From a virus, in IMG/VR virus record IMGVR_UViG_3300008113_000298, positions 1-32,551 of that record: a stretch of DNA of 32,551 nt, one strand, 5' to 3'. The notes beneath the pieces were generated by a model. The model ran no database searches. It had not been told where the DNA came from and worked only from the letters and a program-made list of their open reading frames with translations. Position numbers and translations under genes: made by a program. This document shows, piece after piece, positions 4,494 through 26,913 of the stretch. The stretch's first letter is position 1, and every line of letters starts with the position of its first letter.

Positions 4494-4501
4494 TATTTAT
4501 C
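4494..4501 (-). promoter_or_regulatory. T4-type late promoter motif GATAAATA
   Basis: Minus strand ACGATAAATAA, 23 nt upstream of the ATG of fibre gene A, in the short gap between fibre genes. It matches the NATAAATA form of the T4 late promoter (TATAAATA in T4). No -35 box is needed for that class. Confidence 0.6.
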
Positions 4502-4513
4502 GTAAATGTTAGT

Positions 4514-6112: not shown

Positions 6113-6118
6113 TTCTGA

Positions 6119-8488
6119 TTACGCTCCAGTGTAGATGATAAAGTTTAAGGCCATGAACGGGTTCAATATATTAACTGCTGTCTGGCTAAATGTGTTTGGA
6201 GGGTCTGTTAATATGCCGCCTGAGTTTCCAAGGTACTGACCCAGTCCTGCATCATCTGGCGGATTCCCTGTTCCGGGTACCGCATCAGTGTCTGTAGGAT
6301 TGCCAGGTGCATTTCTAAAAGCAAAATATGGGTTCTCGGCATTGCCTCGTAGATCATGTTCGTGATCAGGAAGATTGGTCTTTTGTAATGTTATTTCCTG
6401 ACTGCCGCCGCCTACTCGTGCTTGATAAGGATCTAACTGATTAATATCTGCTTTAGGATCTGTAACACGGTTAGCACTTGTGCCTATTGTTTCCACTTCA
6501 ACCAGTGGATCCCAACCGTCACCGGACCCCGGACCTTGCGGAACTTTGTTCTTGCTGTTCATATTATCAGCGCCCAATGGGAATCTACCGCGCATATCAG
6601 GCAATCTAAATGTTCCTAAGCCTAATAGTGTTTGAGAGTCTCCGTATGTATATTTGATTGCGTCAAATAATTCAGGATAATCAGAAGTTTGTACTTCAGA
6701 TCCATCACATAGTAACCAACCAACGGGTGCCGTTGGGCCAGCGTAGGGTATTAATGCTCCAACTGGGATTCCAACAATGCTAGACCATAGGTCGGATTTC
6801 TTAATCTTCTTAACACCCTGTGCGCCGCCATCCAGTCTACTAATGACAAATTCGTCAGTTTCCTGTATTGCTGTAACTGCTGGCTTTTCTGAGATGAATG
6901 TGTCACTTAATCTTGTAAAGAATCGTTTTCTATTGCCCACCGGTTCTAATGTCTGTATGCTACCTGCTGTAGTTTGTGCGCCAGTTACTGCACTAGTAAA
7001 ACTCACACTTGACACTGTAGCCCCTGTAACAACATATGTACCACGATAACCAATTGGTGCTATGTTAGCAACTGTGATAGTGCTACCCACTGGATAAGGA
7101 GGAATTGTCTGTGGATCAAATGTTAACGTTACAACAGTCCCAGTACCAGAGGCCGATAATGTTGTTAAGGTAGGAATTCCTCGTTGTCCATCAAATTCAA
7201 CTTGACTACTAACTATATCACCGGTTAATTCAAACACCGTTGAACTTGCAAGTTTACTTGCTGTACCAGACACGTTGCCAGTAACACTGCCAACTAGTGG
7301 GCCATAGAACGCCCCATCAAGTCGACTAGCAAGGATTCTATTGAATCTTTTTTCGGTTGTTCCGATGTCTGCGCCGAGATCAAAATTAGGAACAATTGCT
7401 CCGCCTACAATAAGTTGTTTGTCTTCTGCAAGAATAAGGTCGCCACCGACAGATATATTCTTAGCAACTCCGAGACCTCCAGTGATTAGTACAGCGCCGG
7501 TAGTTGTATTAACAGATTCAGTTGTGTTAGTAAACTTGGAAACACCATTAACTAACATAGTACCGTTGACGTCTACTGTTTCTTGCGGTGCAAAATTATT
7601 TGGGCCCAGTCCTATACGCTCTGCACTATCAACACGCACCATAGTACGAATTGTACCGTTATTGTTAACACGTATATCTAAACTCGAGCCAGTTGTTTTG
7701 TTTAGTAGAACACCAATAGTGCCTTCTAAACCTAATGTAATTTGTCTGTCAGCACCAATGGCAAGTCCTGTACTGTTACGAATGTCAATACCAAAATTCG
7801 TACTACTTGTAACATCGCCGCGTAAGAAATTTGCGGCTGGTACAGATGTAGTGCCAACTAACAATGCGGCTGCATTTTCAGCCACACCAAAATAATTTGC
7901 ATATGAACTGTTTAGATTAACACCTGATTTGACTTCTGTAAAACCTGGAATAACACTTTTAGGAATAAAATTAACTTTACTAATAATCATGACACGTTCG
8001 CCGCCAACAAACTGGCTAACTACTGTCTGACTATTGTTTGCAGTGTCTACAATAATTTCAGGTTCTGCTCCGGTCTTGGCTCCGCTGGAAACGTTAGGGC
8101 CAACTAAAATCCAACCTGATCCTGTGAACAAATATAACTGTTGAGTATCAGTGTTAACCCAAAGATCGCCGGCAATACTACTCTCAGCATCAGGAGTAGT
8201 AGAACCTTTCTTCAATCCTCCGGCTGCTCCCCAGCCAGTGCCATCGTACACTTTGAGTTGATTAACACCTTCTGTGGTGTCATACCATAATTGGCCTTGA
8301 ATTGCATTGCTAGGTTCTTGCGGGCTGGAAAAATTCTCCAACAAATGTAGCAAATCTTCACCAATGATCTGTCCGTAGCCCGTGGTATTTCTACCCGGGA
8401 ATCTCAGTGAAGTAGTGTCGTCAATTGTGTTGTCTTCAACAGTGATTGATCCGTTTAATTGGTTGGTTCTAAAAATTCTATATGACAT
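6119..8488 (-). CDS. Short-tail-fibre-like protein with phage tail collar domain
   Basis: 789 residues. Residues 1-85 are the shared fibre module (SLRFPGRNTTGYGQ, LLHLLENFSS, IQGQLWYDTT), followed by GDLWVNTDTQQLYLFTG. A long beta shaft follows, with an Ig-like insert near residues 445-510 (TVVTLTFDPQTIPPYPVGST). A tail collar domain begins near residue 577 (GALIPYAGPTAPVGWLLCDG) and continues with TFRLPDMRGRFPLGAD. NLPDHEHD places an HxH pair at residues 709 and 711, as in the metal-binding receptor domain of T4 gp12. The end (NPFMALNFIIYTGA) is also gp12-like. It probably acts as the short fibre that locks the baseplate to the cell. GAGG upstream overlaps the end of the 204-aa gene, 2 nt away. 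Confidence 0.88.
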   Translation of the reverse strand: MSYRIFRTNQLNGSITVEDNTIDDTTSLRFPGRNTTGYGQIIGEDLLHLLENFSSPQEPSNAIQGQLWYDTTEGVNQLKVYDGTGWGAAGGLKKGSTTPDAESSIAGDLWVNTDTQQLYLFTGSGWILVGPNVSSGAKTGAEPEIIVDTANNSQTVVSQFVGGERVMIISKVNFIPKSVIPGFTEVKSGVNLNSSYANYFGVAENAAALLVGTTSVPAANFLRGDVTSSTNFGIDIRNSTGLAIGADRQITLGLEGTIGVLLNKTTGSSLDIRVNNNGTIRTMVRVDSAERIGLGPNNFAPQETVDVNGTMLVNGVSKFTNTTESVNTTTGAVLITGGLGVAKNISVGGDLILAEDKQLIVGGAIVPNFDLGADIGTTEKRFNRILASRLDGAFYGPLVGSVTGNVSGTASKLASSTVFELTGDIVSSQVEFDGQRGIPTLTTLSASGTGTVVTLTFDPQTIPPYPVGSTITVANIAPIGYRGTYVVTGATVSSVSFTSAVTGAQTTAGSIQTLEPVGNRKRFFTRLSDTFISEKPAVTAIQETDEFVISRLDGGAQGVKKIKKSDLWSSIVGIPVGALIPYAGPTAPVGWLLCDGSEVQTSDYPELFDAIKYTYGDSQTLLGLGTFRLPDMRGRFPLGADNMNSKNKVPQGPGSGDGWDPLVEVETIGTSANRVTDPKADINQLDPYQARVGGGSQEITLQKTNLPDHEHDLRGNAENPYFAFRNAPGNPTDTDAVPGTGNPPDDAGLGQYLGNSGGILTDPPNTFSQTAVNILNPFMALNFIIYTGA

Positions 8489-8490
8489 AA

Positions 8491-9105
8491 TTAGGCCTCA
8501 TTGAATCCTGTTAAACTTTGTACTCGAACAGTATAATCAATTTGAATAAGCCTGTTTAAAGATTTTTGCACAGGGTGAAAAATAACGTGAGTTAACAATC
8601 GTCCAGTACCTGAGGGATTAAAACTACGTAGCCCTAATTCATCAAATACATAAGGACTTTCATTATATGTTGCATTATCAAATGCTTCTTGATCTGCTGG
8701 CTCGCCGTAGTCTAGCAAACAACTAACTACAATGTCAGTATAATTTGTGCCAGTCAAATGACGAGTTTCAATTTTATTACGTACAGGATCAATGTTGTTT
8801 GCTGATCTATCATCTACAACTTTTGTGTAAGTTTCATTATAAAGGCTGCTGTTAATGCCCGCTGTGTTTGGGGTCAAATAGGTAATAATACCAGTTGGGT
8901 CAACTGTGGTACCTCCATTGCCAAATACCATTTCGTAAATAAATCCTTTGCCCTCGTTGCCAAGACTTTCTGCAAGAGAGATACTCATATTTTCATAATG
9001 AATGGCGTTACGTTTATCAATAGCAATTTCGCCTGTTTCGGGATACCAAATTTTGATATGTCCTTCTACAAGAAATCCTGCGTTTTCGTTGGGTGCTTTA
9101 ATCAT
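8491..9105 (-). CDS. 204-aa putative baseplate/tail structural protein
   Basis: 204 residues with N-terminal EGHIKIWYPETGEIAIDKRN, then AIHYENMSISLAESLGN, a Gly/Thr-rich loop region (MVFGNGGTTVDPTGIITYLT) and a C-terminal YVFDELGLRSF followed by IQIDYTVRVQSLTGFN. No enzymatic motif, signal or membrane segment is visible. The sequence style fits a small beta-sandwich virion protein. It lies between the giant wedge-position gene and the collar fibre, the place held by gp8-gp11 in T4, so a connector between wedge and fibres is a fair guess. Homology to any named T4 protein is not claimed. AGGTAGGA precedes the ATG, and a late promoter motif lies 19 nt upstream, inside the stop of the giant gene. 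Confidence 0.7.
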   Translation of the reverse strand: MIKAPNENAGFLVEGHIKIWYPETGEIAIDKRNAIHYENMSISLAESLGNEGKGFIYEMVFGNGGTTVDPTGIITYLTPNTAGINSSLYNETYTKVVDDRSANNIDPVRNKIETRHLTGTNYTDIVVSCLLDYGEPADQEAFDNATYNESPYVFDELGLRSFNPSGTGRLLTHVIFHPVQKSLNRLIQIDYTVRVQSLTGFNEA

Positions 9106-9124: not shown

Positions 9125-9132
9125 TATTTATT
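9125..9132 (-). promoter_or_regulatory. T4-type late promoter motif AATAAATA
   Basis: Minus strand GGAATAAATATAC, 19 nt upstream of the ATG of the 204-aa gene. Its central TAA is also the stop codon of the giant gene. Spacing and sequence match the other late motifs in the window. Confidence 0.6.
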
Positions 9133-12100
9133 CCGACAAATCTACACCCTTGGCACGGATGAACTTAGCAGGGTCGCTAGTTGCATCCGCTAGGGCAATA
9201 TTCTGTTCTGTCCATGTACGACCAATTCGTTTTTGTACAATAATCTTAACTCCAGGCGGTGGTGTATCTGTTAATCTCACATACGCACCGATATTCTTGT
9301 TTACAGCAAATTCTGCTTCTATTAGTTTATTTCCACTTGGACTGTCTGGGCCTAGCGTTTCGTCAAATATTTCAAGTGGACTCTTTCGAAGTCTACGGCC
9401 TCCAACAAATACTTCAATGTCTGTACTTTCCCAATATTCATAAGGAATACTAGTGTAATCAACAACTGTACCTGTGCCTGTGCCGGCGGCAGATGCTATG
9501 AATCCAGTACCGACAGCGTTTGCACTAGCACCTATTAAACCAAAATTAGTAGTGCCTACGGATGCTATCACATACCCTCGTCCAGGTTGGATACGTGTTA
9601 CTGGTATTACTCTAGTATCTTTATACCATCCTGTTTCTGTTGCTGGATTAGGAAGAGGAGCAAAAGGCAATAATATCTGTACATATTTAATTGCTTGCGG
9701 AACAACTACACTTGTTGTTGGAATAACAAACGGTGTGGTCCTCGAAGGATTTACAATAGTTAAATCGTATGATCCAACACTTTTGGCACTGGTGATAAAT
9801 GTTAATTGTGTTTCGCTAATATAAGTTGTAGCACATTGGTTGACAAAATTTCCAAGACCGTCAACTATAGTCGGATCTCCAACAAACACCTTGACATCAC
9901 TACGGAATCCTGTGCCTGTAACAGTACACACTTGCCCGCCTAACGGAAAGGCTGTGTTGTTATTAAAGTTGTAAGTAAAGTTGGTTACAGTTACGCCTGT
10001 GCTGTTTGGATAATACTGGCTTCCAAGAGTAAATCCATCAGATATTACTTCAGTGTTTAATATTTCGTCTTTGTAAGGAACAGTATTAACTATACCTTGG
10101 TCTCGTAGTCGTGTTCCCACAGGGTATTGCGGTTTAATACCAGTACCCAATGTTCCACGACGTAACTGGCTTAATATGTTGCCAGTCTTTTTCAAATATT
10201 CAATTCTTTCTTTATCAATGACTATTACGCCAGGCTCGTTTTTTAACGCATTAGGAGTTGTTAATCCGCTGGCATCAACTACAGTAATTTTAGAATCGTA
10301 TCCGTTCAGAGGTTCTGCTAGGCTAGTGCTAGTGGCATCATCGATACGTTTGTAGACTACTCGGTTCGTCATATCTTTAAAAATTCTATAACCAAACGAT
10401 GACCGTGTAGTATTACTATTGAATACAATAACTTCTACCATATCTGCTGATTGTAACTGTCTTGTAATTCTTACAAATCGTAAATTATTTTCAAGCACGT
10501 AATCAACATCTGCAACTAGTAGTTCTCCGTTGACAGAGATCCATACATATTGGGCTGCTAGTGCTGGCTTGTTTAATGCAATGCGACCAGATGTTAATTG
10601 AGTGAATTTTGTATAATCAACAGCGCCCGGAACAAGACTAGAATTGAATTTAACTACATCATTAAATCGTTGAATATCTAGTACATCATGATTACTAAAT
10701 GTTGTTACTTCAATTGATGTGTCGGCCGGATACGAATCTAGGAATGTAATTACGCTACCTGAAATAGTATACTTTGCATCTTTGAGTATGGACAAAGTAA
10801 CTTTATCGCCAACTACAGCAACATTGCGTTTTAATTTTAATTCGTTATTATTAGAAACCCAGTTCCAATCTCTGGCACGTTGAGTCGGCAGTCCGTTAAT
10901 ATACACTTCAACTTGATCTGGGTCAATAGAATTGAATGAATAATCTACAGGACTTACACTGTAAGTTCTAGAAGTTCCCGCAACATCAAAGTAGTAATTA
11001 TCAATAGATTTAACAATACTGCCATCAATTACAACAATAACATTATTTTCAAATGGCTCTTTAAACAACGGTGCGTAACTTAATGTGTATGCAGACGTTG
11101 TACCATTGTGTACTATTGTTTCTTTTTGCACTTTGCTGATTGTGTTTACAAAACTGTTGATAATAGTAAAGTTGATAATACTGCCCGCTTCGGGTGCAGT
11201 ACTAAATTTAATAACAATGTTGCCAGTATTCTCGAATGTTTCATCAGCAATAAATGTTGTTACAGATTCCGCCACTCCGTCGACTGTAACAAACGCAGTA
11301 TAATTCTCAGTCGATCGTGCCGCAGTTACATAGTCTGTGGTTAATCCGTCAGATATAAAGAAGTCTAAGTCTAAGATGCCAAGGCCGTTTTGACTTAAAC
11401 TTGTAACTGCAACTTCGTCGCCAATTGTTGGTGGCACTAGTAATCGTATTGTCTGTGTTCTATAATCAATAGAATAATCTTCATTGACGATTCCAACATT
11501 GTTATTGATTTTAACAAACACAGCATCGGCTGTTCCTGGACGTTGTCCTAATTCAAATTCTGTATCTGCAACAGTTTTTACACGGTAGAATCTAGTTAAT
11601 ATTGTAGGTGAGCCATCGCGGACCTTGTCGTACACTTGTATATCAACAGTGTCCACAACTTGTCCGGGAACAACTTCTTCAGGTGCGTGACTTGAAAATA
11701 CAGAAACAAACCCATCACCATCCACATTAATTGCGTCAGGGTTAATACCTCTGGCACTTTGGTATGCTAGATCACCGCCAGTTAAATCAACGTCAAAGGT
11801 AGTGTCATCTGGTCGGAAACTACCGTCACTGGTGCTTTCACGTAGAACTATTTTATCTCCGTTAGTCAACGGAACGTCGTTAGGTATTACAAAAAATTGC
11901 GTACTACCGTCGCCGTAGAGACTATTCATAATTGCAGTTACATTGAGTACTACGGGCAAGGTGTCTAGTGTTGTTTGGGCAGTACTGACTATTAGTTGCT
12001 GGTCTGCAACATCTTGTTGTTTGTTGATAACCGCAGTAATTGAAGCGTTGTACTGAGATATTGCAAGAGTCAATGCCGCGTTAGCAGCCAAGCGAACGTT

Positions 12101-15100
12101 GGCCTGTGCTACAATTAACGGTTCAATCTGCATTGCAAGAACTAAATTACCGTCTAACAATGCTTGATTATATTGTGCAGTTAAATCATCTAGATAGGCC
12201 TGTTGTTGAACAAGATTATCAGCGGCGGCCTCTTTAGCGGCATTTTTTTCTGCACGTACATTAACTAAAAGTTGAAGATCATCTTCAAGATCAGTAAGTG
12301 TATTTTGTTCCGATATAAGAATAGTTTGTGCCGCGTTGACTGCATCATAGTTAGGATCGTCAATTTTAATTCCGTTTTTATAAACGTTAAGTTCTGCTCC
12401 ATCCGTTAAGATGTAATTCATATCAAATGAGCGGCTGGTGCCGTCACTGATAAACAATCTATCCTTAAACTCGGTATCAAATGTGTCCCAACCTCCTACA
12501 AACCACGGAAGTGCGTCCCATCCTGATCCAATATTAAAACTTAGTCCTTGAATTTCTACGCCGCCGTAGTCTACTCCCTGCATTAACTGTCCAAGGTCTT
12601 TGCCAAGTTGGCCGCTACTTGGAGCATAGTAGTGTTGGATTCTGTCGGCAGCATCTAATAAGTCAATACTCTTTCTGTAATTAATTACTATAACACTTTG
12701 ATTAATTGGTGCTGTTACAAATACAACTCTTGCGAAATAACGAGTATAACCAAGACTAGTGTCTGCAACATTTGTCAATGTGAATTCGCTGTCCAGTATA
12801 TCAATTCCATTTATAGAAATTCCATATGTACCAGGACGACTGTCGGCTGGCCACTTTAAGTCAAATCTTGTTCGGGCGCCACTGCCATCAAATTGTTGCG
12901 ACACACTCAAATCTGTTATAGTATATTTTGCAGAAATTCTATCAAATTTAACTCCAAGTTTGTTAGAACGAACAGGCCCTCTTTCTAACTGTAAACTTAA
13001 TTGTGCTACAACCCCACCTTCTGTATCAAGTCCGCCATCGAGTGTAACTGTTGGTGTTACTAAGTATCCCTCGCCTTGATTTTCTACAACGACTTTGATT
13101 AATTTGCCGCGACTAACATATGCGGTGGCGATTGCAGGAACAGAACATATTCCAGAAATAATAACTTGAGGAGCAGTTTTATATCCAGCACCTCCGTTGG
13201 TCACGTCAATACTCTTGATAGAATGTCCAGCATTGTAATACCAGTTACTGTATGGCTCTTGTAAAATAATATTATTATCAGATACAATTGCGCCATCAAC
13301 AATTTGAGTTGTAATCGGTTGAATTAATCCAGAATCTGGATTGTAGATTGCTGGCAAATCAAAGTCTGTGGTTAATGTTCTAGACCTATCAAGTTTATCA
13401 TATGCACTGACAAACTCTCTAATCTTAGTTCTATATGGTTTAACTTCTCGAACATAATCTTCGTAACTTTCTAAATTATCGTTCTGATATGTTATTTTTT
13501 GTTTTAGTTCGCCTAGATTATGCTTACTTTTAACAAAACTTGTTTTAAATGCCCAGTCAACAAAAATTTGTTCTGTGAACACATAACGAAGACTTGCAAA
13601 GAATAGTGCATTGTACTCTTGTGTTAGTTGGTCAACAAATATGTTGTTCTTTAACACATCGATGATAATGCGTAGTTCTTCTTTGGGCTCATCATCAAAC
13701 ACATCAACATCATAGAACGGTCCGTCAAAGCCAACGTTACTATTTTTAAATTCATAGATATTAGATTTTAATTGTATTGTACCATTTTGACGACCAATAA
13801 CTTTAAAACTACTATTAATGTCTAGTAAGTTTACACTGTCAGTATTCTTTTCTAACAATAGCCATCCTGAAGAACCAACGTTTTTAACTTTAACTGTTTC
13901 ACCAAGGTCAACAGTTAGGCCGGCTAGTTGATAAGAAAAGTCAACTGAAAAATCAACTTTAGTAAAACTGTTGTATCCGTCAGCATACCAGTCAGCAAAA
14001 TTCCAATACTTGCTGACATTGTAAGTTTGAACTAGATCTTTAATCCATACTTTATTTGTAGTGTCCCAGATATATAATGCCCAGTTGCCCGATGATTGTT
14101 CGTCAGTATTAACTAACGCAGTGTAGGGGCGAACTGTTAACGTAGTGTTGGCTTGATATCCGTTGCCAGGATTCTCAACGACTGCACTGACAACTTCGCC
14201 TTTGATATTGATAATTGTACTAATTTTAGCGCCAGTACCGATACCCGACACTTGTACGTTTGGTCCTCGTCGAGGTTTGCCTAGACTTTCATCGTAACTT
14301 AAATCATTATAATTTTTTCCGCTGTTAACAATAGTAACACGAATAATTCTGCCATCTTCAATTACAGGCTGAAGTACGGCTGTGCGGCTTGGCGCAACGT
14401 TGACAAATCGTAGGTCTGAATACAAGTCTTTAACTGCATCATATTTTAGTGAATACACACTCGGTGCTTCATCTTTATTATAAAGATTACTAATATCAAC
14501 ATCATCAACAATATTGTTTTTAATTAAAACGCGATTGGCACGTTCAACGAATTGTTTTAATGCTTCAAGTCTATTGATAAACATGCTTTGTCGCGGCTTA
14601 CTTAAAATACCGTAACGAAGTTTCATTGGTAACTTAGGATCCGGAACTGGATTTGCTAAATCGTCAAAGCCTATTAGACTTTCTAGCCACTTTTTCTCAA
14701 TATACTTGTTGAGTTGTTTAGACTCATCGCCTTCGGCAACTAACTGATAGTGACTATGAACGTTAACTTCAGTATTATCGATTACCCAGTAGCGGAAATT
14801 AATTGCAACTCTACGGTCCGTGATCAATTCTTTACAGTTAACTAGACTAAATTGTGTTGGGCTGTGAAACGCAATGTACTTGACCCCTTTGCTCTTTGGA
14901 TCAGAAATAAATCCTGCAACATCATTTGCAGAATATGCACGATTATTCACAGCAGGAATAGTCTTTTTATTCTTAACCCAGAAATAATAAGTCGTTGACA
15001 ATGATTCTGCAATAGAATCATATGTTTGTGTAATTGAATACGCGAAATCGCCATACTTACTTTGGCCGCTGATGCCCATGGTCAGGCCTTCATCTGTGTC

Positions 15101-18100
15101 AGCAAGACTGTCCCAGACACTTGGCGTGTATTTAGAACTTACCCATTCGTAGACAGCAACTTCACTGTCATTAAATCTTCCATTCCAACTATTTGTCTTA
15201 TAAACAACTGATCCTTGATAAGTGTTTAGGAACTTAGCACTGGCCAAGTCCCACCATAAACGGCCAACCTGACTTTCATTCCAACCAGTTAGTTGATCAA
15301 CGTTAACTGCTTCTGTACCAATAATATAAGTTGCAGGATCATAAAAAGTCTTATAACTTAATTCTTGTTCGGCAAGGCCTAAAATTTTTCCTTGTAGTGG
15401 ATCAATAAAATCTAGATATTGAATAATTGTGTTCTTGTCAATGTCATACATGAACACTGATTTTATTTTTTTGACATCAACTACCGGTGTAGGAGATTGA
15501 TCCTTAATCCATGATTTAGCAGTACTCTTGAATTCGTAGACAGCGCCTGAAGTTTTGCCAGGATCACCAATGTATACAGAATTTACAAATGTTAATGAAT
15601 TACCGTACTTGGTTCCAAGTACTCCGTCAATGTCCAGTTGTTCTGCAAAAACTAATTTAGTATCATATTTGTCAAACACAAACACTGCGCCAGCGCCCGG
15701 TTGCGGGTCTTTAAAGGTAGTGCTCGTTAAATCAAATAGTGTAGTGTTACTATCAAAAGTGGTAGGGGTATCTTGTAGTATACCGGCGGCATACACTGAC
15801 AGTCTGTCACCCGCACTGTTGAACTCAACTTCAGAACCAAAGCGGCCGGCTGAAGTATTTTTTGGATTTTTAATCAAGTATTGAGCAACGTACTCATTGT
15901 TGATTAATTCAAATACTACCACACATCCTTCTTCCGTGTTCAACCCGCTGTAAGAAGGTGCGCCAACTGCTAGTGTTTTAGCATCTCGAGTGATAGCAAT
16001 TGATTCAGCAAAGTTTGATCCAGTGCTGATAGTTAATGTAGTATTTGGAACTAAATCTCCAAACTGTACAGTGTGTGTTAATACTAATGTTCCGTTACTA
16101 ATAGCATATAGTCTTACTGTTTCGTCTGTAAACGACACAGCCACTACATCATCTGCCACACTTAAATCTGTGATTTCATATAAACTATTAAATCCAGAAA
16201 TCAAATCTAATTCTTGTCCGTCTAAGTCATATAGGAATAATGCAGGCGACACACTGCCAATTGTTCCGCGAGATGCTACAACAATATTTGCAGATGTGAA
16301 TCCGGTAAACTGTGAATAGAATTCCGATGTTCTTCGAGTGTCAGGTAACAAGTTCTTTGTAAATTCAAAAATGTTTGAGGAAGTTTTTGTATATAACGCC
16401 GCATACCCTTCACTGTCATCTGCGCCAGGAACTCCTATTAATAAACGAGCACCGTCATAGGACAATGCCAGCGAGTTACCAAATGTACCATTTGTATCTA
16501 TAAGTCCTGTTGATCCAGCGTTTAACGATTCAGTAAATGACCAGTTAAATGTACTAGCAGGACGAGTAAAATATCTAACTCTGTCGTCAACACCACTTCC
16601 AGTGGACACTGCCATAATTGTTTCATTTTTGCTAACCGCAACTGTACGACCAAAATTATCAGACTCGTCTAATATATTAGTAGAAGTAAATGCAGGTTCG
16701 TATTTCCATACTGCCCAATTATTGTTAACACCGTCGATCCATACTCGATCTCCGGATACTTTAACTGGCAAATTAACTTCGTCTAGTCTATCAATTGACG
16801 AAACTTCGTTGACACTTTCTTTGATTCTCAAAGAACTAAACTTGTAAACAATAAATGGATTACCCACTGTTGCTAGTAAAATATCGTCTTCTGTTAAGTC
16901 GCCTGCTGGAATTTCAATATAATTAAATCCTGTGGCTGTGATCTCATAGACTCCGTCAACTACCGCAGAGGAGTTGATACCGATATAGTCTCCAACTTGT
17001 AATTCTTCGTCTTTATTTCCCGCAAATGTAATTCTGATTACAGGATCACTTAATGTAACTGTTGACACTCGTGCATTGATCATTGAGAATCTGTAGACTC
17101 CCCAAGTATTAACATCATAGCCAATCCAGATTCTGCTGCCTTCTGACAACTGAGATAATTCAAGTGTGGTTATTTCTGCCTTGCTGGTAAAGACAAAGTC
17201 AACATCATCTTTTCTAATATATCCAGAAGTATCTACAAAGTAATCGTCCGGAACACGTACCGGGAACGGAGCATGATTATAATCTTCGCTTGGAACATAT
17301 ACTTCGTAGGGCAGGATTCTATAAACGAAATCGTTAGTTTCTTTGTCAATGCTACTGACTAGTTCAAACGGTTGAGGATTAATCAACATTTTTGTTTCGT
17401 CAATACGATACTCTATTTCCTCAAAGGCTGCTGTGGCTCCGTAGGTACCTAATCGAAGTGCCCACTCTTCATAAAATTCTAAACTGTCTTTATCTGCGGA
17501 ACTCAACGGGTTGAACAATTTAGTCAGTACGTTTTGTGTACCTTTATCACGGATCATGCCTTGATAGAATTTGTACTGTGCAACATCATCGTTGATAATG
17601 TTTTCTAGATAATCTCTACGTTGGTATCCAATTAAATGTTTAGCAATAGTTTGTTGGTCAACATCAAAACTATCAGTGTCAAGATCATAAAAATCAAAAA
17701 ATTGATTTGCTTTATAATCCCAGTTAGGGATTAGTTTACTTTCTGGTTTGTTAGGTAGTCTAAACCAACTGGCATCATCGAATTCAGCAGTACCCGGTAC
17801 ATTTCCTTTAGCAGAATAATAAAACTCTTTATATTTTACAGTGTCGCTTAGTGAATAATCTTTCCAGGCTGACCATTCAGTAACTTCTGCACGATCGTAG
17901 ATAAATCCTGGAATATTAAAGTCACCTTGCCAAGCGGCAGTTCTATAGCCAACTGCTTTAATACGTTCTTGGCGATATCCTTGAATCTGATCATAGATGA
18001 CATCGTTAAACACTGTTTTGTTATCTAAAATAATAACGTGTTCTTTTTGTACTGAGTTCAATGTTACGTGGTATATACCGTCCGCAGTGTTACGGGGACG

Positions 18101-21100
18101 AAGTACAAAGTTATCGCTTTTTCTAACTGTGTTTATGAACAACGGATCTAAACTGTTTCCATCTTGTTTATAAACACTGTATTCATAGAAATTATCAAAG
18201 ATATTATCAACCACACTGAATGGTTTCTTGAATTTAATTTCGTCAGCGCCTGGGCTTAAACTAATAACGGAGCCTGCACTCCACTTTTGAGTTGTCCAAA
18301 ATGCAAACTCTTTAACTGCTGTGCTCCAATCAGTTACAGTAGATAACACTGAATTAAAGAAATCAAAGTTAAAACCTTGAGCGATTAACCACTGGCCGTA
18401 GCCCGTTAAGAAATCTGCAACACCTTGTACAGTTGCAATTTCTGATCCGTAGTGTAGTGTAGATTCAGATGTTTCAACAGTGCTACGCACAATGATAGAT
18501 CGGCCGCCAGTAATTGGTAAACGCGGTAATTTAGAAAAATATTTTAATTCAAAAGTCGTACTACTAGTATGACTTGTTGTCACTCTATAATAATTGTTGT
18601 CATATCTTACAACTTGTGTTTTGTTGTAAAATTTTTCGTTATCCCAATCAATAAATCCTTCTGAAATTCCGCCAACGTTGATTACAGGATCGCTGGCAAT
18701 TTCCACTGGTTTGTAATACTTAAATTCCGGAGATACTAGATTATATCCTTTGATTACGAATCCGTTGGAAACTTTTTCAACAATAACACCACTGTAGTCA
18801 AGACTTGATACAGGAGTGCTTGTGTTAAGAATAATTTTGTAGTTCTCAAACGGAACAAATACATTCTTTTGATTTAGAGGACTACGGCTGTCTAAGACAA
18901 GTTTAAACTTTTCTTTAGTAATAAATCCGCCTACTTTTGTAGACAAGTTAACTTGTAACCTAGGCATTTTTGACTTATAAGATTCTAGACTGTCCTGACT
19001 CTTAGATGAAATAAAGTCAGTGATATAGTTTACTAATCCGCTGGAATATACTCTAGTAGTATCGTTGATAGAGTTTGGATATTCAATGTTAGTATGACTA
19101 AATCTAACATTGCCCGATACAGTTTTATAAACAAGTTGTCCTGTAAAGTCTCGAATTTGTCGACTGCGGTCAAACAATGTAGCAAATGCTTTTGCTGGTC
19201 GCAAAATGCTTATTGCAGTAATTAGTGCAAAGGGATATTCAGAACTGCGTCTCCAGGCATTTTCAATAGGAGCACAGTCACCGAACGAAAATTCCGCATC
19301 GGTCAAGTAAAATACATAATCTTTTACAGAGTTGGATTCCAACGGTGACAATAACTTTCCACTGTCATCTACAGGAATTTGTCCTAAAATAGTCGGGCGA
19401 GCATATTTTGCAACACGCTGAATTAGTTTACCAGGTTCACGAATAATACCTTCTGAAATGTCAGTCCATAGTATTAAGTTGTCTCGAGTGTATGGTGCTG
19501 GCCCGTACACGCTTACCCACCACGTTGGACGTTGACTGAATCCTAATATTTCCCAAGGATGGGTATGCGGACGATCCGTGTCATAAAAGTGTTTATAGAT
19601 CCCTCTCCAATGTCCTGGTAATTCTGTACCGGTTGGTGACGAAAAGTTTTTATAATTATAAGTAAAACTGTTTGTAGGTTCAAAGAATGTGTGCTTTGTA
19701 TAGTCGTCGGCTATGAAACGACTCCATTTCAAGAAGTCTTGTCGAATAGTACCATTAAGTTGTTGACTGGTTATGTCACTAGTTCTATAATATCCAGATG
19801 TAAAATCTAAAATATCAAATAGGCTAGTGTCATATCTAACTTTGATATTGTTATAGATCCTACGTTCTAATTCTAAAATTAAATCATCTCGGTAATCATT
19901 AAATGCACGAACAATACTGCCATCATGTCCTTGTATTACAGAAATTGGTTCGTCACTTACTAAAGTGTCGTCAACATAAATTGCTGGCTCAAAAAGAGGA
20001 TATAGTCCTAATTTTGTAGGAGTGGGCGGAACATAGCAACCGTTGGTATTTTCGTACTGTACAATTTTTAATTCGTCACCAACAGTCAGCGGCTTTTTAA
20101 TTCTAACAAAATTTGTGTTAAAAAATTCGTAATCATTGCCGTGCAATAGTTGAGAGTCATTTAAGTAAACAATAACTGCTTTGTCGCTAAGTGTGTTTAA
20201 ATCAAAATCAAATGTTATAGGATACTCTGTGATAGAATCATCTATAACTTCTTGATCGAATATAAAATTTCCACCAAACGGAATCATGTCTGAAAAGAAA
20301 AATGGCATCGATGATGTTTTATCCTTGACCATTTCTTTCATTAACAAATCTAAGTGTATTCGAGTAATTCCATCAAATCCGTAATCTGTTGCAGTACGGA
20401 TAAAGTTTCTTTTAAATTTATTATATTCTTCTTTGGCGAATCGTAATGCTTTAACAACATTGTGTTCTTTGTCTGTAAAATGATAGATGATAGGAGTTAG
20501 CGGAGCACTATGCTGTACAATCCGTTTGCCATAGGCAGTGAGATTAGATAAATCTCGTAGATTGCCTGTTCCTGGTAATGTTCCAGTGAAATCGTCTCTA
20601 TCGTCGGCAATTGTTTTAGCGTGATTAATTACTTCGCCCAAGGTGCAGTCTGCAAGTCCTAAGTTTGCAGGATTACTTTCAAAGTTTCTAGGAATTTCAT
20701 AAAATCCGTTGGCATTTTTTGGAGTATTGCTAAACGATTTAACAACAATACTATCAGCCGCAGTGATATCTACTGCTAGTTCGATATATGCTTGATCGTT
20801 TCTTAGAAAGATTTCATAATCAAATACTCGTTTGATAATTTTACCGTTGACAAATACCTTGACTTCTAGGTCTGTCAATAGTCCGCTGTTATCATAAACG
20901 TCTATTGGAAAATAGTTTGTACGTTCTGTACCGTCAAACTGTCTTGTAACATACTGTTTACTATTTTCAACTGCAATTTCCCAGCCATTGACATAATCAA
21001 ATGTATCAATACTGATTGTCTTCTTTAAATAACCTTTGGAAATATCAACAGTAACAATGTCAGCAAGTTCTTTATAAATGAATGTGTCTTTTTGTAAGTT

Positions 21101-22948
21101 AAAATCAAATAAGATATCGCCAATGTTGCCGATATTCTTATATGCTATTCCGAACCCTAGTTCTGTGTCAATACTCACACCCGGAGTATATCCGAATACT
21201 CGAGTGCCGCTGAAAGTAGTGCCTGGGTATTTGATTTCAGTTCCGTAACTGATTCCAACATTATCAAAAACATCAAACAACGGTGCTTGGTTTACAGAAT
21301 CCTTAGACTGTGCAACACTCCAATTGTCTCCGTTGTAATAAAACATCTTGCCTTTATTAACTAGACCATCAAGCACTAATACAGTTTCGTCCTGGATGGG
21401 CGATGTGTCTTTTTCTTCTAATAAAGTAATTCGACGAGCGTTTAAATGTGTTATAAACGATACTTTAAATATTCTACCAGCAACTTGTACATCAGGATCT
21501 GCTAGGAATAATACACGCATACCTTCTAGTAAATCAATACCATCAACATTATATCCAAGACTGCCTTCAATGGTTGAAAACACATCAGTGGTGTAGGTAT
21601 CAACTAAAGTTACGCTGGTTTTATACTGACGGCCAAACTTCCATAATGCAATATCTGCTTCAAATTCAATAATAGGTCGAGTTGCTCTAAAATTTTGATC
21701 AAGCACTGCTTGAACACCATTAACATCTGAAGATGTTGCAACAATATCCTTATGGAACCAACGGTTAAATCGAGACCAGGGATTGAGATCTTTGCTTGAA
21801 CGATTAATTACAAGATAATCCTTAGTTGTTGGTAAATTTCCAGCAACATCAAATCCTTGGCTATCAAATCCTTCGTTGTCAAATTCAACGTTTACACTAG
21901 TAGAATAAGAACTAGGAGTTGCTAAATCAGTTTCGTTAACTAATTTAATGGCTGCTCCAACACCCTCAACATACCAATTGCCAGTAGCATATTTTTCAGG
22001 TGTTACTCGACCTTGGAAATACACTTTCATACCATTAGATAATATGATGTCGTTAGAAGATATATAATTTTTCTTTCCTACTACTTCAACGTCTACGTTG
22101 ATGCTGGACGAATCTGTAATATCATAAATTTTAAAAATGCCACCGGTGTTAACATCAGTTTCACTTACATAATAAATGATGTTTGGTGCATCTAGGGGCA
22201 CTGTGAATTCAATTATACCCGATTGAACATATTGATTACCCGTACTGACTCCACTTTCAAAGAAGTTACTATCGCCGGTTTCACGAATTGTTTTAAATGC
22301 AATTCCGTATCCCGGACAATTTACTTCAAATTGATAAGTTTGTCCTCTGTACAATCGAAGATTAGGATTACGTGTTAATGCATCTGGTGTAAACACGTAG
22401 GCACGATTATCAACATCGTCAACTAAGTTAATAGAATACGTACTGATAATATTGTCTGACTGGCCTGCTATTGGAATAGCAACTGGTCCATTAGGTAGCC
22501 AGTAGTAATCTCGATAGTTGACAAACTTGTCCCAATCCATGTGAGGATTCCAAGCATAGAATTCTTGACTATTAATCTTGTTATGATCAGTGTCTCCGCT
22601 GTTGAAGAACGCTAACTGATTAATAAAATCAGGATAGTCTTTAAAGAATTCTACGTTATCAAGATTATCCTTAATGATAACTGCTGGCTCAAATTGATAG
22701 TCTGAACGTTGAGCCGTTGCACCTGATAGGTAATTGTCTCCTGGACGGTAAGGTTCAAAAGTTTTTCTGCCAATAAATGCACTTACTTTTTCTACTTCAC
22801 CTTCTGAGATCATTTGATCTAAGGTGGCAGATAAAAACTTTTGATTTGCACTAGTTCTAAAATACTTAGGCAAAAATCCTATAGAAGTTTTATCTGCATT
22901 ATCAGAAACAGAAAGTGGTGGGTCAAATTGATCGTTGTTAAATGCCAT
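9128..22948 (-). CDS. Giant modular baseplate/tail protein, about 4606 aa
   Basis: One uninterrupted frame. I take the ATG at 22946-22948 (MAFNNDQFDPP); a GTG at 22958-22960 adds four residues but has no ribosome binding site. Visible modules, from the N-terminus: a conserved-looking head (GFLPKYFRTSANQKFLSATL); beta modules of the form VFVNGK...DYE...ADSIVV near residues 690 and 920; a region of seven FG-GAP-like blades at about 2094-2480 (for example FGNSLALSYDGARLLIGVPG); GxGY-type repeats near 2863-2943 and 3243-3313; a coiled-coil-like Ala/Gln/Asp-rich stretch at about 3535-3662; more NG...DY modules; an IPT/TIG-like domain at about 4320-4405 (VCTVTGTGF); and a final beta domain. It overlaps the gp6-like gene by 11 nt and sits where T4 has gp7. 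Probably a wedge protein with built-in host-binding arms. Function is inferred from position and domain style. Confidence 0.85.
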   Translation of the reverse strand: MAFNNDQFDPPLSVSDNADKTSIGFLPKYFRTSANQKFLSATLDQMISEGEVEKVSAFIGRKTFEPYRPGDNYLSGATAQRSDYQFEPAVIIKDNLDNVEFFKDYPDFINQLAFFNSGDTDHNKINSQEFYAWNPHMDWDKFVNYRDYYWLPNGPVAIPIAGQSDNIISTYSINLVDDVDNRAYVFTPDALTRNPNLRLYRGQTYQFEVNCPGYGIAFKTIRETGDSNFFESGVSTGNQYVQSGIIEFTVPLDAPNIIYYVSETDVNTGGIFKIYDITDSSSINVDVEVVGKKNYISSNDIILSNGMKVYFQGRVTPEKYATGNWYVEGVGAAIKLVNETDLATPSSYSTSVNVEFDNEGFDSQGFDVAGNLPTTKDYLVINRSSKDLNPWSRFNRWFHKDIVATSSDVNGVQAVLDQNFRATRPIIEFEADIALWKFGRQYKTSVTLVDTYTTDVFSTIEGSLGYNVDGIDLLEGMRVLFLADPDVQVAGRIFKVSFITHLNARRITLLEEKDTSPIQDETVLVLDGLVNKGKMFYYNGDNWSVAQSKDSVNQAPLFDVFDNVGISYGTEIKYPGTTFSGTRVFGYTPGVSIDTELGFGIAYKNIGNIGDILFDFNLQKDTFIYKELADIVTVDISKGYLKKTISIDTFDYVNGWEIAVENSKQYVTRQFDGTERTNYFPIDVYDNSGLLTDLEVKVFVNGKIIKRVFDYEIFLRNDQAYIELAVDITAADSIVVKSFSNTPKNANGFYEIPRNFESNPANLGLADCTLGEVINHAKTIADDRDDFTGTLPGTGNLRDLSNLTAYGKRIVQHSAPLTPIIYHFTDKEHNVVKALRFAKEEYNKFKRNFIRTATDYGFDGITRIHLDLLMKEMVKDKTSSMPFFFSDMIPFGGNFIFDQEVIDDSITEYPITFDFDLNTLSDKAVIVYLNDSQLLHGNDYEFFNTNFVRIKKPLTVGDELKIVQYENTNGCYVPPTPTKLGLYPLFEPAIYVDDTLVSDEPISVIQGHDGSIVRAFNDYRDDLILELERRIYNNIKVRYDTSLFDILDFTSGYYRTSDITSQQLNGTIRQDFLKWSRFIADDYTKHTFFEPTNSFTYNYKNFSSPTGTELPGHWRGIYKHFYDTDRPHTHPWEILGFSQRPTWWVSVYGPAPYTRDNLILWTDISEGIIREPGKLIQRVAKYARPTILGQIPVDDSGKLLSPLESNSVKDYVFYLTDAEFSFGDCAPIENAWRRSSEYPFALITAISILRPAKAFATLFDRSRQIRDFTGQLVYKTVSGNVRFSHTNIEYPNSINDTTRVYSSGLVNYITDFISSKSQDSLESYKSKMPRLQVNLSTKVGGFITKEKFKLVLDSRSPLNQKNVFVPFENYKIILNTSTPVSSLDYSGVIVEKVSNGFVIKGYNLVSPEFKYYKPVEIASDPVINVGGISEGFIDWDNEKFYNKTQVVRYDNNYYRVTTSHTSSTTFELKYFSKLPRLPITGGRSIIVRSTVETSESTLHYGSEIATVQGVADFLTGYGQWLIAQGFNFDFFNSVLSTVTDWSTAVKEFAFWTTQKWSAGSVISLSPGADEIKFKKPFSVVDNIFDNFYEYSVYKQDGNSLDPLFINTVRKSDNFVLRPRNTADGIYHVTLNSVQKEHVIILDNKTVFNDVIYDQIQGYRQERIKAVGYRTAAWQGDFNIPGFIYDRAEVTEWSAWKDYSLSDTVKYKEFYYSAKGNVPGTAEFDDASWFRLPNKPESKLIPNWDYKANQFFDFYDLDTDSFDVDQQTIAKHLIGYQRRDYLENIINDDVAQYKFYQGMIRDKGTQNVLTKLFNPLSSADKDSLEFYEEWALRLGTYGATAAFEEIEYRIDETKMLINPQPFELVSSIDKETNDFVYRILPYEVYVPSEDYNHAPFPVRVPDDYFVDTSGYIRKDDVDFVFTSKAEITTLELSQLSEGSRIWIGYDVNTWGVYRFSMINARVSTVTLSDPVIRITFAGNKDEELQVGDYIGINSSAVVDGVYEITATGFNYIEIPAGDLTEDDILLATVGNPFIVYKFSSLRIKESVNEVSSIDRLDEVNLPVKVSGDRVWIDGVNNNWAVWKYEPAFTSTNILDESDNFGRTVAVSKNETIMAVSTGSGVDDRVRYFTRPASTFNWSFTESLNAGSTGLIDTNGTFGNSLALSYDGARLLIGVPGADDSEGYAALYTKTSSNIFEFTKNLLPDTRRTSEFYSQFTGFTSANIVVASRGTIGSVSPALFLYDLDGQELDLISGFNSLYEITDLSVADDVVAVSFTDETVRLYAISNGTLVLTHTVQFGDLVPNTTLTISTGSNFAESIAITRDAKTLAVGAPSYSGLNTEEGCVVVFELINNEYVAQYLIKNPKNTSAGRFGSEVEFNSAGDRLSVYAAGILQDTPTTFDSNTTLFDLTSTTFKDPQPGAGAVFVFDKYDTKLVFAEQLDIDGVLGTKYGNSLTFVNSVYIGDPGKTSGAVYEFKSTAKSWIKDQSPTPVVDVKKIKSVFMYDIDKNTIIQYLDFIDPLQGKILGLAEQELSYKTFYDPATYIIGTEAVNVDQLTGWNESQVGRLWWDLASAKFLNTYQGSVVYKTNSWNGRFNDSEVAVYEWVSSKYTPSVWDSLADTDEGLTMGISGQSKYGDFAYSITQTYDSIAESLSTTYYFWVKNKKTIPAVNNRAYSANDVAGFISDPKSKGVKYIAFHSPTQFSLVNCKELITDRRVAINFRYWVIDNTEVNVHSHYQLVAEGDESKQLNKYIEKKWLESLIGFDDLANPVPDPKLPMKLRYGILSKPRQSMFINRLEALKQFVERANRVLIKNNIVDDVDISNLYNKDEAPSVYSLKYDAVKDLYSDLRFVNVAPSRTAVLQPVIEDGRIIRVTIVNSGKNYNDLSYDESLGKPRRGPNVQVSGIGTGAKISTIINIKGEVVSAVVENPGNGYQANTTLTVRPYTALVNTDEQSSGNWALYIWDTTNKVWIKDLVQTYNVSKYWNFADWYADGYNSFTKVDFSVDFSYQLAGLTVDLGETVKVKNVGSSGWLLLEKNTDSVNLLDINSSFKVIGRQNGTIQLKSNIYEFKNSNVGFDGPFYDVDVFDDEPKEELRIIIDVLKNNIFVDQLTQEYNALFFASLRYVFTEQIFVDWAFKTSFVKSKHNLGELKQKITYQNDNLESYEDYVREVKPYRTKIREFVSAYDKLDRSRTLTTDFDLPAIYNPDSGLIQPITTQIVDGAIVSDNNIILQEPYSNWYYNAGHSIKSIDVTNGGAGYKTAPQVIISGICSVPAIATAYVSRGKLIKVVVENQGEGYLVTPTVTLDGGLDTEGGVVAQLSLQLERGPVRSNKLGVKFDRISAKYTITDLSVSQQFDGSGARTRFDLKWPADSRPGTYGISINGIDILDSEFTLTNVADTSLGYTRYFARVVFVTAPINQSVIVINYRKSIDLLDAADRIQHYYAPSSGQLGKDLGQLMQGVDYGGVEIQGLSFNIGSGWDALPWFVGGWDTFDTEFKDRLFISDGTSRSFDMNYILTDGAELNVYKNGIKIDDPNYDAVNAAQTILISEQNTLTDLEDDLQLLVNVRAEKNAAKEAAADNLVQQQAYLDDLTAQYNQALLDGNLVLAMQIEPLIVAQANVRLAANAALTLAISQYNASITAVINKQQDVADQQLIVSTAQTTLDTLPVVLNVTAIMNSLYGDGSTQFFVIPNDVPLTNGDKIVLRESTSDGSFRPDDTTFDVDLTGGDLAYQSARGINPDAINVDGDGFVSVFSSHAPEEVVPGQVVDTVDIQVYDKVRDGSPTILTRFYRVKTVADTEFELGQRPGTADAVFVKINNNVGIVNEDYSIDYRTQTIRLLVPPTIGDEVAVTSLSQNGLGILDLDFFISDGLTTDYVTAARSTENYTAFVTVDGVAESVTTFIADETFENTGNIVIKFSTAPEAGSIINFTIINSFVNTISKVQKETIVHNGTTSAYTLSYAPLFKEPFENNVIVVIDGSIVKSIDNYYFDVAGTSRTYSVSPVDYSFNSIDPDQVEVYINGLPTQRARDWNWVSNNNELKLKRNVAVVGDKVTLSILKDAKYTISGSVITFLDSYPADTSIEVTTFSNHDVLDIQRFNDVVKFNSSLVPGAVDYTKFTQLTSGRIALNKPALAAQYVWISVNGELLVADVDYVLENNLRFVRITRQLQSADMVEVIVFNSNTTRSSFGYRIFKDMTNRVVYKRIDDATSTSLAEPLNGYDSKITVVDASGLTTPNALKNEPGVIVIDKERIEYLKKTGNILSQLRRGTLGTGIKPQYPVGTRLRDQGIVNTVPYKDEILNTEVISDGFTLGSQYYPNSTGVTVTNFTYNFNNNTAFPLGGQVCTVTGTGFRSDVKVFVGDPTIVDGLGNFVNQCATTYISETQLTFITSAKSVGSYDLTIVNPSRTTPFVIPTTSVVVPQAIKYVQILLPFAPLPNPATETGWYKDTRVIPVTRIQPGRGYVIASVGTTNFGLIGASANAVGTGFIASAAGTGTGTVVDYTSIPYEYWESTDIEVFVGGRRLRKSPLEIFDETLGPDSPSGNKLIEAEFAVNKNIGAYVRLTDTPPPGVKIIVQKRIGRTWTEQNIALADATSDPAKFIRAKGVDLSE

Positions 22949-25900
22949 AGTTGTTTGCACTCTGGATGCCGGTATTATTAGTTAGTGATGTTAACACTGT
23001 GCCGTTTGCGCGAATTCTCGACGCAGTAATTTCGCTGATAATTTCAATGTCAGTGACTGTTGCAGAACTTACAAATATTTCATCAGCATTAGATTTAATT
23101 TCATATAAACTACCAAAACTTAAACTTTGGTCTTTAGGAACTATTACTAAGTTACTAATGTTAGGAGAAACTTTATTCATAATATAAGTTGTCAACTCTG
23201 TGAAATAAAACGTGTCGCCGAAGTTCCAATTTTCAATTGCAAAAAATTCGTTGATTGCAGTTATCACACTGGTTTTAATATCGCTGTCACTTACAGCAAC
23301 GTTGCCGCTTTTAACAACTTTAAATGTTGCCTGTAAAGATACTGGCGCAGTGGCTCCAAATATTTCTTTATATTTTACTGGATGATATATTACTTCATCA
23401 CTGATTGCTTTAACTTTGTCTAGACTAGCGCCAAAGTTTACATATAATGCATCACTGCTTGGGGGCAGTGGACGCTCTGTAATTTCATTTCTAATCCAAC
23501 GACGATATTCAGTATCATATATCTTTGTCAACACGTAAACATCCATGATGTTTGTGGAACTTGGATCTAATCTTGCATTACTGTTGGCCGCATGTAGATA
23601 TTGAAATTTTAAACCGCTTCGTCCAAAAAATCCACGATATTCGTTGGTTACCTGAAACATAGGAGCGCCTGTTCTATTAAACTGCTTGACTAGTTTTTCG
23701 TCTAACAAATAAACAAGTTGTCCGTCTGCAATTCCGTTAAATGGATTAATATTAATTTCTTCTACATTGTTATATGTTAAAATAAGACCGTTGTCATTGG
23801 GGCAATAATAATAATCAGTGACTCCGTCTAGTCCAGTCTTACGTTGTTGAAAAATAATTTTTTCAGTTGTGTTTGTTTCTGTTTCTACAATACGTGCAAA
23901 GACTTCAGGATCGTCAATGACTCCGTCATCGTCACTGTCGGTAAATGTTATACTGATTTTTTTACTGTCAATGTATCCGTCGGCGCCTTTGTACTCATCA
24001 ATAATTTCCCAGTCATAGGTTAAGCCTAATGGCAACACTACTCCAAGAGTAGAGTCTACATCTGGGCGAGTATTAATGTCTAATACTGAAATTTTGTCTT
24101 TGACAATTTTTCCGATACTAGTATCATAAATTTTATCGCTTGAATCATAAAAGAATCTAACTTCCTTGATACTTTCAAAGACATAACGAGTTGCACGATT
24201 AGTTACTGTGTAAATTTCACCATCAGTTTCAAATAGGACAATCCAACTTGCATCCAGTTGCTGATTACTGATGTCGCCGGCTTTGCCAATACTAAAATTA
24301 GAAATTTTATCCACGTTAGATTCTGCAATAATTTTCCACGAACTGTCAACAGTGTCATAGCGGAGACCAAATTCTTTTTTAGCAAAAATTAAATCAAATA
24401 TTTTGTTACGAACACTATCTGAAAATTCTTTAACAAACTTAGGAATAATACTTTGTAATTCTGCACTTGACGGAACAAGTTCGTTTAGTTTAATTGGGCC
24501 TTCACCGTTGGCCAATACATTAGTTGATCCAAATGTGCCGCTACCTGCAATGTTAACAATTTTTGACCAAATATATGGTTTCTCCCCTGCCTTTTTAGGT
24601 GCAGTGGATAGGACAAGATTATTTTTTGAATCAAATGCTCTGTAATTTGTTGGAGGAACAAACTTAACTAAACAGTCATTAACAACATAACGAAGATTAG
24701 AACTAGTAAATGCGCCAACTTGACGTACTTCGCCAGTTAGAACGTTGGTCAAATATCCTGTAGATTGATTAGTTGTTTTAGTTACTCTATTCCATTTGAT
24801 AAACGGCGTTCCCAAATTGATTTCTGAGAAGTTGTCTAAGTAAAAATCATAAACAGATTTCTTTTTAAGAATAGGAACGACCTGATTTGTAACCACACTT
24901 TCAATTTCGCTACGGGTAGCAAAACTAAAATTAAATGTTTCTGTAAAATTTTCTTTGTATAGTACACCATCTGTACCAAATAAATTAGTACTACTGTACT
25001 GACCAGTTACATCTTTTAAATCAAAGTAACGGCTAATGCCCGAACTGACTCGATTCACTGCTTTTACTTTTATAATTTCTTGACTTACGCCTAGAGGTAG
25101 AATGTTATAGTCTTCACCAGTGATCATTCTATTTTGTGTATAGTATGTCTGCGGTGCTTTTTCTTTAATGCTGTCAGAATCTTCTGCTGGGGTTGCATTA
25201 GTCACTGTGTACTTTAAACTCAGTGTAACTGTTAGTGTTTCTTGACGACCTTTACGACTTAGGTATGGGATGTCGATAGTAACACTCTTGATGCTGTTTG
25301 GTGTAATTTTATAAGATAGTCCGTTGCTTACACGATAATATACTTTGTAATTACCTTGTGGTAACTCTCCAAACACGCCATCAGAAAATACTAGTCGTAC
25401 ACGATCTGCTGTTCTGCTTTGTACAGAATAAATTTTACGAGACCCGTTGCTAACGCTGTTGTATATGATGTTGTTGCCTGTTAAGGCTTCAACTTTTTCC
25501 CATAGGTTTGCATCAAGACCAATTTGATCTAAGTCATATAACCATACGTCCGAATCGTTAATTCCGCTGGCGTCTAGGTCAACTACTTCGTTAGGAGTTG
25601 CTCGTGCAACATTAAAGTTACCTTGTTGCAAACTGCCTTGACGAAAATGTAGAAAGAATCCAGTGTTACTGCTAGGCGCTCCGCCGCCGTCATCTCGGTA
25701 CAAGAATGCCAAGTTGTTACCTGGAAACGGTGCTTCTTCGTATATGCTACTTGAATTTTTAATCACACTAGATACAACGTCAAAACTCATGTTACGACCA
25801 TCAACGTTTTTACTAAAACTATAAATGGGCAGTTCTGTGTTGGTTCCGTTGAATCTATACTGTTCTGTAGGCACACCATTGATTGTGTTTCTATCCTGAG

Positions 25901-26466: not shown

Positions 26467-26895
26467 TTATAATATAGTGTTGTCTTGATCGAATCTGTAG
26501 CGCAGGCTTTCAGAAATATTGTAGGGCAAATATGTTAATTCGCACTCTATTTGAAGTCCGCTTTCATATTCGCTGACTGTGATGTTGTCCACAGTAACTC
26601 GTGGATCATAGTTTATGATAGTAGTCACATCCTCGATGATTAGATCTTTAATATCTTCTGTTAGCGGTTCGAATAAGATATCCCAGATTAAAGTTCCAAA
26701 CTTGGGATTTTCTAGTTTTTCGCCGCGACGGATATGAAAGTGATTAGTAATATCCTGCTTGATCAGTGCAATATCGTAGAGTGCAAAATTACCAGATTCT
26801 GCAACCGTGCTAATTCCTCTGTAAGTACGGCTAGTAACAAAACTAGTGTCCTTGCTAGATGGTATTTTTATTCTAGAAACTAAGTTTTTTTCCAT
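26467..26895 (-). CDS. gp25: Baseplate wedge protein, gp25-like
   Basis: 142 residues from the ATG at 26893-26895, close to T4 gp25 (132). A longer frame from 26973 would add 26 residues inside the spike gene and is rejected, because the internal ATG has AGGT (26901-26904) just upstream and starts MEKNLVSRIKIPSS. The body matches the GPW/gp25 family: YDIALIKQDITNHFHIRRGE, then NPKFGTLIWDILFEPLTEDI, IINYDPRVTVDNITV and a final strand region with LTYLPYNISESLRY. In T4 and related contractile machines, gp25 sits in the baseplate core and seeds sheath assembly. It lies between the spike and gp6-like genes, as expected for a core wedge component. Confidence 0.92.
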   Translation of the reverse strand: MEKNLVSRIKIPSSKDTSFVTSRTYRGISTVAESGNFALYDIALIKQDITNHFHIRRGEKLENPKFGTLIWDILFEPLTEDIKDLIIEDVTTIINYDPRVTVDNITVSEYESGLQIECELTYLPYNISESLRYRFDQDNTIL

Positions 26896-26905
26896 GGTGT
26901 ACCTA

Positions 26906-26913
26906 TATTTATT
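26906..26913 (-). promoter_or_regulatory. Possible late promoter motif AATAAATA upstream of gp25
   Basis: Minus strand AAATAAATATAGG, only 10 nt from the gp25 ATG and containing the stop codon of the spike gene. The short distance would leave almost no leader and may cut off the AGGT site, so it is weaker evidence than the other four. Confidence 0.35.

Follow-up and report, generated by a model that had tools for sequence, protein, structure and literature searches.

A giant virion protein family of RaK2-like jumbo phages encoded directly after gp6, in the gp7 position

A single reading frame occupies 42% of the viral DNA analysed here, a 32,551-nucleotide record from IMG/VR (IMGVR_UViG_3300008113_000298) that we refer to as the window. 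What is a protein of this size doing beside genes for a contractile tail baseplate, and is it the counterpart of the T4 baseplate wedge protein gp7? A reading of the sequence alone had noted the one uninterrupted frame and had proposed that its product takes the place of gp7. The frame is as described: a minus-strand ORF with no internal stop runs from 9128 to 22960 (4610 aa from a GTG codon) and is uninterrupted over 9128-22948, the span that begins at the ATG.

The ORF is a real coding sequence, because it has full-length relatives of 72-74% identity, because substitutions between those relatives are concentrated at third codon positions (differences of 0.23, 0.14 and 0.50 at positions one, two and three) and because the main ORF measures 4349-4954 aa in the 17 IMG/VR loci that span both of its ends. 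Its unusual length might bring to mind an assembly artefact or a fused pseudogene, but the presence of a gene of about the same length on many independent contigs, the strong third-position bias and the detection of homologues in virions (below) make this extraordinarily improbable. The idea of a singleton or artefact was likewise discarded in view of the match to phrog_10938, the relatives in at least 559 IMG/VR stretches and the coding bias. In one of the 17 loci (L022:8652-23602) the gene is present as two overlapping ORFs of 640 and 4349 aa, being split because a separate 640-aa ORF stands in front; a sequencing error or a natural break near residue 640 would account for it.

The gene and its neighbours are as follows.

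26467..26973, minus strand: gp25-type wedge / sheath initiator protein (PF04965, E 2.6e-7, over cut-off)
22938..26417, minus strand: gp6-type baseplate wedge protein, 1159 aa (phrog_10646, E 0; phrog_219, E 5.9e-23)
9128..22948, minus strand: giant virion protein gene, 4606 aa from ATG, with a GTG start at 22960 also possible (phrog_10938, E 0)
8491..9105, minus strand: small protein directly downstream of the giant gene (phrog_11259, a PHROG of unknown function, E 8e-70)
2920..8488, minus strand: three fibre-like genes (6119-8488, 4514-6112 and 2920-4470), the first with a Collar domain (PF07484, E 8e-19)

Upstream lie genes for a gp53-type wedge protein, a large hub-like protein, a gp5-type OB/DUF2345 protein, gp25 and gp6, the last of which overlaps the start of the giant gene. 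T4 gp6 is itself assigned to phrog_219, the same family that the gp6 of the window matches. The matches to phrog_10646, phrog_219 and the Collar domain confirm the flanks that had been read from the letters, gp6-like on one side and fibre genes on the other. The three fibre-like genes have in common an N-terminal domain of about 130 residues (36-44% identity; blastp matches among them reach E 1e-26 to 1e-28 within the first 130-140 residues) that looks like a baseplate docking domain to which different distal parts have been swapped. Further downstream, at 3-1560, two adjacent genes are distant paralogues of each other (24% identity, E 1e-11) and read like glycosyltransferases; no Pfam match was seen for the pair at E 0.1.

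Against the phrog_10938 profile the giant protein scores 1103 bits (E 0) in four stretches. On sequence grounds it belongs over its full length to PHROG 10938 ("virion structural protein"), a family of giant proteins from RaK2-like jumbo phages whose members (in RaK2, GAP32, CBB, 121Q, PA5oct, Atu_ph07, SCTP-2 and XacN1) are 3100-4450 aa long. Homologues found by tblastn in RaK2-like and related jumbo phages include those of PA5oct (3857 aa), Atu_ph07 (4449), SCTP-2 (3807), RaK2 (3326), GAP32 (3341), XacN1 (3313) and RAS14 (3138), with CBB, 121Q and others also matched; named examples are RaK2 ORF070, GAP32_230, CBB_236, 121Q_582, PA5oct gp355 and Atu_ph07 AUZ94962. Among viral models, Foldseek matched members of the family, that of Atu_ph07 for example, and IMG/VR yielded relatives at 31 loci by sequence search and in at least 559 stretches by profile search. 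By these sequence matches the protein belongs to an already catalogued, widespread family and is ordinary for its lineage. The PHROGs category given to phrog_10938 is 'head and packaging', a label that appears to be generic and was treated as such.

The order of genes is conserved along with the family. In all 104 of the IMG/VR loci with enough upstream DNA for the question to be put, gp6 lies immediately upstream of the giant gene. The homologue directly follows genes of the gp25 and gp6 types in the annotated genomes of PA5oct, RaK2, GAP32, XacN1 and CBB; in 121Q it also follows gp6, with one intron-associated gene between the gp25-type gene and gp6. The gp7 position proposed for the protein thus holds throughout the 104 loci and the annotated jumbo relatives examined, with the single exception of SCTP-2, where an unannotated ORF of 3096 aa (ORF141, L040:6630-15920) precedes the giant gene. 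That ORF is perhaps an enlarged or fused gp6.

Absence from purified virions had been named as the result that would count against a structural role, and for the family the outcome is the opposite, through homologues. Mass spectrometry of CBB virions recovered 21 unique peptides of CBB_236, a coverage of 7.72% (PMC5259590); CBB_236 adjoins the gp6-like CBB_237. In phAPEC6, reported as the same species as 121Q, gp245 (predicted 381.88 kDa) was represented by 17 peptides with 7.6% coverage and adjoins the 131-kDa wedge protein gp244 (PMC7247149), the gp244/gp245 pair corresponding to 121Q_583/582. The record for PA5oct gp355 also flags ESI-MS/MS. Coverage of only about 8% demonstrates presence in the virion, is compatible with a single chain or a processed one and does not place the protein in the tail.

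The protein had been described as a string of beta modules and repeats with a coiled coil and an IPT/TIG domain. Its modular make-up is borne out; the coiled coil comes from reading of the sequence, and the IPT/TIG assignment reaches only a sub-cut-off score (E 0.09). The parts recognised, from the N-terminus, are these.

20069..22948, minus strand: conserved N-terminal block, residues 1-960 less an insert (alignments; model pLDDT 85, pTM 0.75)
22121..22450, minus strand: cupredoxin-like domain, residues 167-276 (AlphaFold2 model; VIA-align Z ~10)
17279..20086, minus strand: most conserved block, residues 955-1890 (alignments; model pLDDT 83, pTM 0.66; ~24-33% identity to jumbo homologues)
18521..18664, minus strand: chitin-binding type-3-like module, residues 1429-1476 (Pfam CBM_5_12 E 0.03, below cut-off; VIA-align Z ~7)
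17510..17635, minus strand: conserved helix pair with DKGT motif (LIGYQRRDYLENII..FYQGMIRDKGTQNVLTKLF), residues 1772-1813, candidate gp7-like core
15509..16711, minus strand: FG-GAP-like variable stretch, possible beta propeller, residues ~2080-2480 (Pfam FG-GAP_2 E 0.004, below cut-off; lowest conservation)
14489..15568, minus strand: conserved block common to jumbo phages, residues 2461-2820 (alignment conservation)
14144..14353, minus strand: GxGY beta repeat, residues 2866-2935 (tailspike Dpo31/Dpo36, 8ck1, E 8.5e-5; Syn19 proteins)
13034..13222, minus strand: second GxGY beta repeat, residues 3243-3305 (blastp/hhalign to Syn19_088 and Syn19_090 repeats)
11954..12355, minus strand: long helical, coiled-coil-like insert, residues ~3532-3665 (sequence reading; in ~21% of aligned relatives)
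9743..9958, minus strand: possible IPT/TIG domain in a lineage-specific insert, residues 4331-4402 (Pfam TIG E 0.09, below cut-off; coverage ~25%)

Alignment coverage marks a further conserved block at about residues 2940-3240. Residues 1981-2460 are variable, as is the C-terminal third, and inserts confined to particular lineages lie at 3541-3660 and 4321-4500. Structure prediction in overlapping segments, which had been suggested for the whole chain, was run with AlphaFold2 for residues 1-960 (from 103 sequences) and 955-1890 (from 86 sequences), and solved structures were matched at accessory domains only. By VIA-align, the cupredoxin-like domain matches copper nitrite reductase and laccases over 94-100 residues; it also occurs in cyanophage fibre and wedge proteins and is poorly covered in RaK2-type homologues. 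The module at 1429-1476 superposes with an rmsd of 1.2-1.5 over 45 residues on chitin-binding modules and on a baseplate chain of phage Milano (8fqc_P1). We claim no catalytic function for any of these modules.

Is the giant protein then gp7? A profile comparison with T4 gp7, put forward as a check on the idea, went against it: hhalign gave probabilities below 1% for the family and for each block, and 3.5% for the best window of the motif scan described below. The gp7 profile phrog_964 matches T4 and cyanophage Syn19 and no jumbo genome, nor was any other T4-type gp7 found in the jumbo genomes. The positive control was T4 gp7 against Syn19_088, which aligned over a 29-residue KGT motif (residues 695-723 of Syn19_088) with a probability of 92.5% (E 5e-7; phrog_964 E 8.5e-6). 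This suggests that Syn19_088, annotated only as 'virion structural protein', is a true giant gp7. When the core motif, KGT/KGI (DFYSTKGIEASYKFLFKVLYNE), was sought in the jumbo family by comparing 160-residue windows with the T4-plus-cyanophage KGT core, the best three all overlapped residues 1801-1840 and aligned at the family's own DKGTxxxLxKLF helix (residues 1801-1813), the nearest counterpart. We regard this as a lead, not a result, because the best probability is only 3.5%, far below significance. In the family alignment the K and G of the DKGT motif are invariant and the T is nearly so, and the helical region falls where conservation across the marine set is highest. Folded alone it has a pLDDT of 37-55; such low confidence would be expected if the helices fold only with partners.

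Other searches gave a similar picture. Searched with a profile of the KGT block, the PDB, Pfam and PHROGs yielded no gp7-type family, and a profile search found no significant PDB chain match over the core of the giant protein. Foldseek and VIA-align comparisons of the two models (residues 1-960 and 955-1890) with the PDB returned no gp7/TssG entry, which does not exclude a gp7 fold (helix bundle plus trifurcation domain), and no wedge-core match; only the cupredoxin and chitin-binding modules stood out. Matches to cyanophage proteins annotated as gp7 or gp9 (the Bellamy 'baseplate wedge initiator' and Syn19 gp9) were rejected as evidence for gp7, because only the mobile cupredoxin-like domain is matched. 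Only gene position, then, points to gp7, and an ancestry from gp7 would be a conjecture from that position.

Taken together, these results lead us to favour, as the probable though by no means assured reading, a role for the giant protein in the baseplate wedge, where it would be the outer partner to gp6 and form an arm, its gene occupying the gp7 slot of T4. In this reading gp6 would hold the conserved core (residues 1-1900 and 2460-3240) close to gp25 and the sheath; the variable beta modules, the sugar-binding-like domains and the optional coiled-coil and TIG inserts would extend outwards as an arm, and this arm could carry the fibres or link them, and perhaps make contact with the cell surface. 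Membership of the wedge, stoichiometry and the geometry of the arm are what we infer here from position and modular make-up.

The missing gp7 signal also suits a different view, in which the giant has no relation to gp7 and only decorates the wedge, as a peripheral baseplate protein or an anchor for fibres, the true gp7 equivalent being a small unrecognised protein or part of an enlarged gp6. The gp6 of the window is indeed enlarged (1159 aa against 660 in T4), and contractile phages can use very small gp7 equivalents, such as gp32 of A-1(L), with residue numbers to 151 (PMC10966104). Nevertheless, both T4 and Syn19 have their gp7 slot directly after gp6, and across the 104 loci the giant gene is never apart from gp6; we judge this alternative rather unlikely. 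Unlikelier still, to our minds a long shot, is a host-recognition appendage, a long fibre or whisker merely co-transcribed with wedge genes. Chitin-binding-like, cupredoxin-like and GxGY modules do occur in tailspikes and fibres, and unusual ramified fibres and whiskers are known from RaK2-like phages (PMC3622015; PMC5259590), but conservation within the protein is highest in the core blocks, which are non-adhesive, collar-type fibre genes lie separately downstream in the window, and the homologue stays beside gp6 even where the downstream genes differ.

The sequence-only reading went further, suggesting that a wedge protein this long could replace several of the peripheral proteins gp7-gp11. 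In none of RaK2, PA5oct, Atu_ph07 and five large IMG/VR relatives did the Pfam models of T4-type gp8, gp9/10 and gp11 score over cut-off, a result to be read with the window itself being a fragment and Pfam liable to miss diverged forms; as controls, T4 was matched by gp8, gp9/10 and gp11 and Syn19 by gp8 and gp9_10. The gp9_10 model made a sub-threshold match (E 2.7e-4) in one of the five IMG/VR relatives, and the PA5oct record calls one fibre gene gp10-like. Replacement is therefore possible; what agrees with it is only that T4-type gp8, gp9/10 and gp11 went undetected in RaK2, PA5oct and Atu_ph07. We offer only tentatively, and doubt somewhat, the idea of a hypertrophied gp7, a wedge core with many added modules in which one chain per wedge would do the work of gp7 and gp8-gp11, with gigantism in RaK2-like jumbo phages as well as in T4-like cyanophages.

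The family is large (the 559 or more IMG/VR stretches), its members are found in virions and its core is without a solved structure. For phAPEC6 a tail map at 25 A is available (EMD-10929). If the giant protein is the gp7 partner of gp6, jumbo baseplates would be built from a shorter parts list and far larger chains than that of T4, and a single protein could serve as the basis for modelling baseplates across a large group of jumbo phages, aquatic and enterobacterial.

Among known systems, the jumbo homologues of PHROG 10938 are closest, sharing the slot after gp6 and homology over most of the length (~24-33% identity in the core blocks); the window protein is longer (4606 versus ~3100-4450 aa) and has extra inserts, namely the coiled coil, TIG and a second W-rich module. 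One gp7/TssG chain is paired with two of gp6/TssF both in T4 and in type VI systems (PMC6300606). With TssG, P2 gpI and A-1(L) gp32 the giant protein would share only this proposed role of single partner to two gp6/TssF chains; they are far smaller (~150 residues for A-1(L) gp32), and no similarity was seen between the giant protein and their Pfam families. At its N-terminus the giant protein may resemble P2 gpI (LPxxF..). T4 gp7 (1032 aa, phrog_964) likewise lies between gp6 and the peripheral baseplate and fibre genes, and its structural role is probably the same, whereas significant sequence similarity was not detected; at 4606 aa the window protein is 4.5 times as long, in keeping with the initial estimate of several times. 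Giant proteins in the gp7 slot are already on record, and the earlier pointer to marine phage giants was apt: the same slot in Syn19 holds Syn19_088, a 6483-aa protein (T4-GC 969; NC_015286 54654-74105, L069:14655-34106). Like the window protein, Syn19_088 is giant, follows gp25-gp6 and carries a ~60-residue GxGY beta repeat; it differs in having the T4 gp7 KGT motif and shows no full-length homology to the window protein, and Syn19, in contrast to the three jumbo genomes (RaK2, PA5oct and Atu_ph07), retains gp8 and gp9-type genes.
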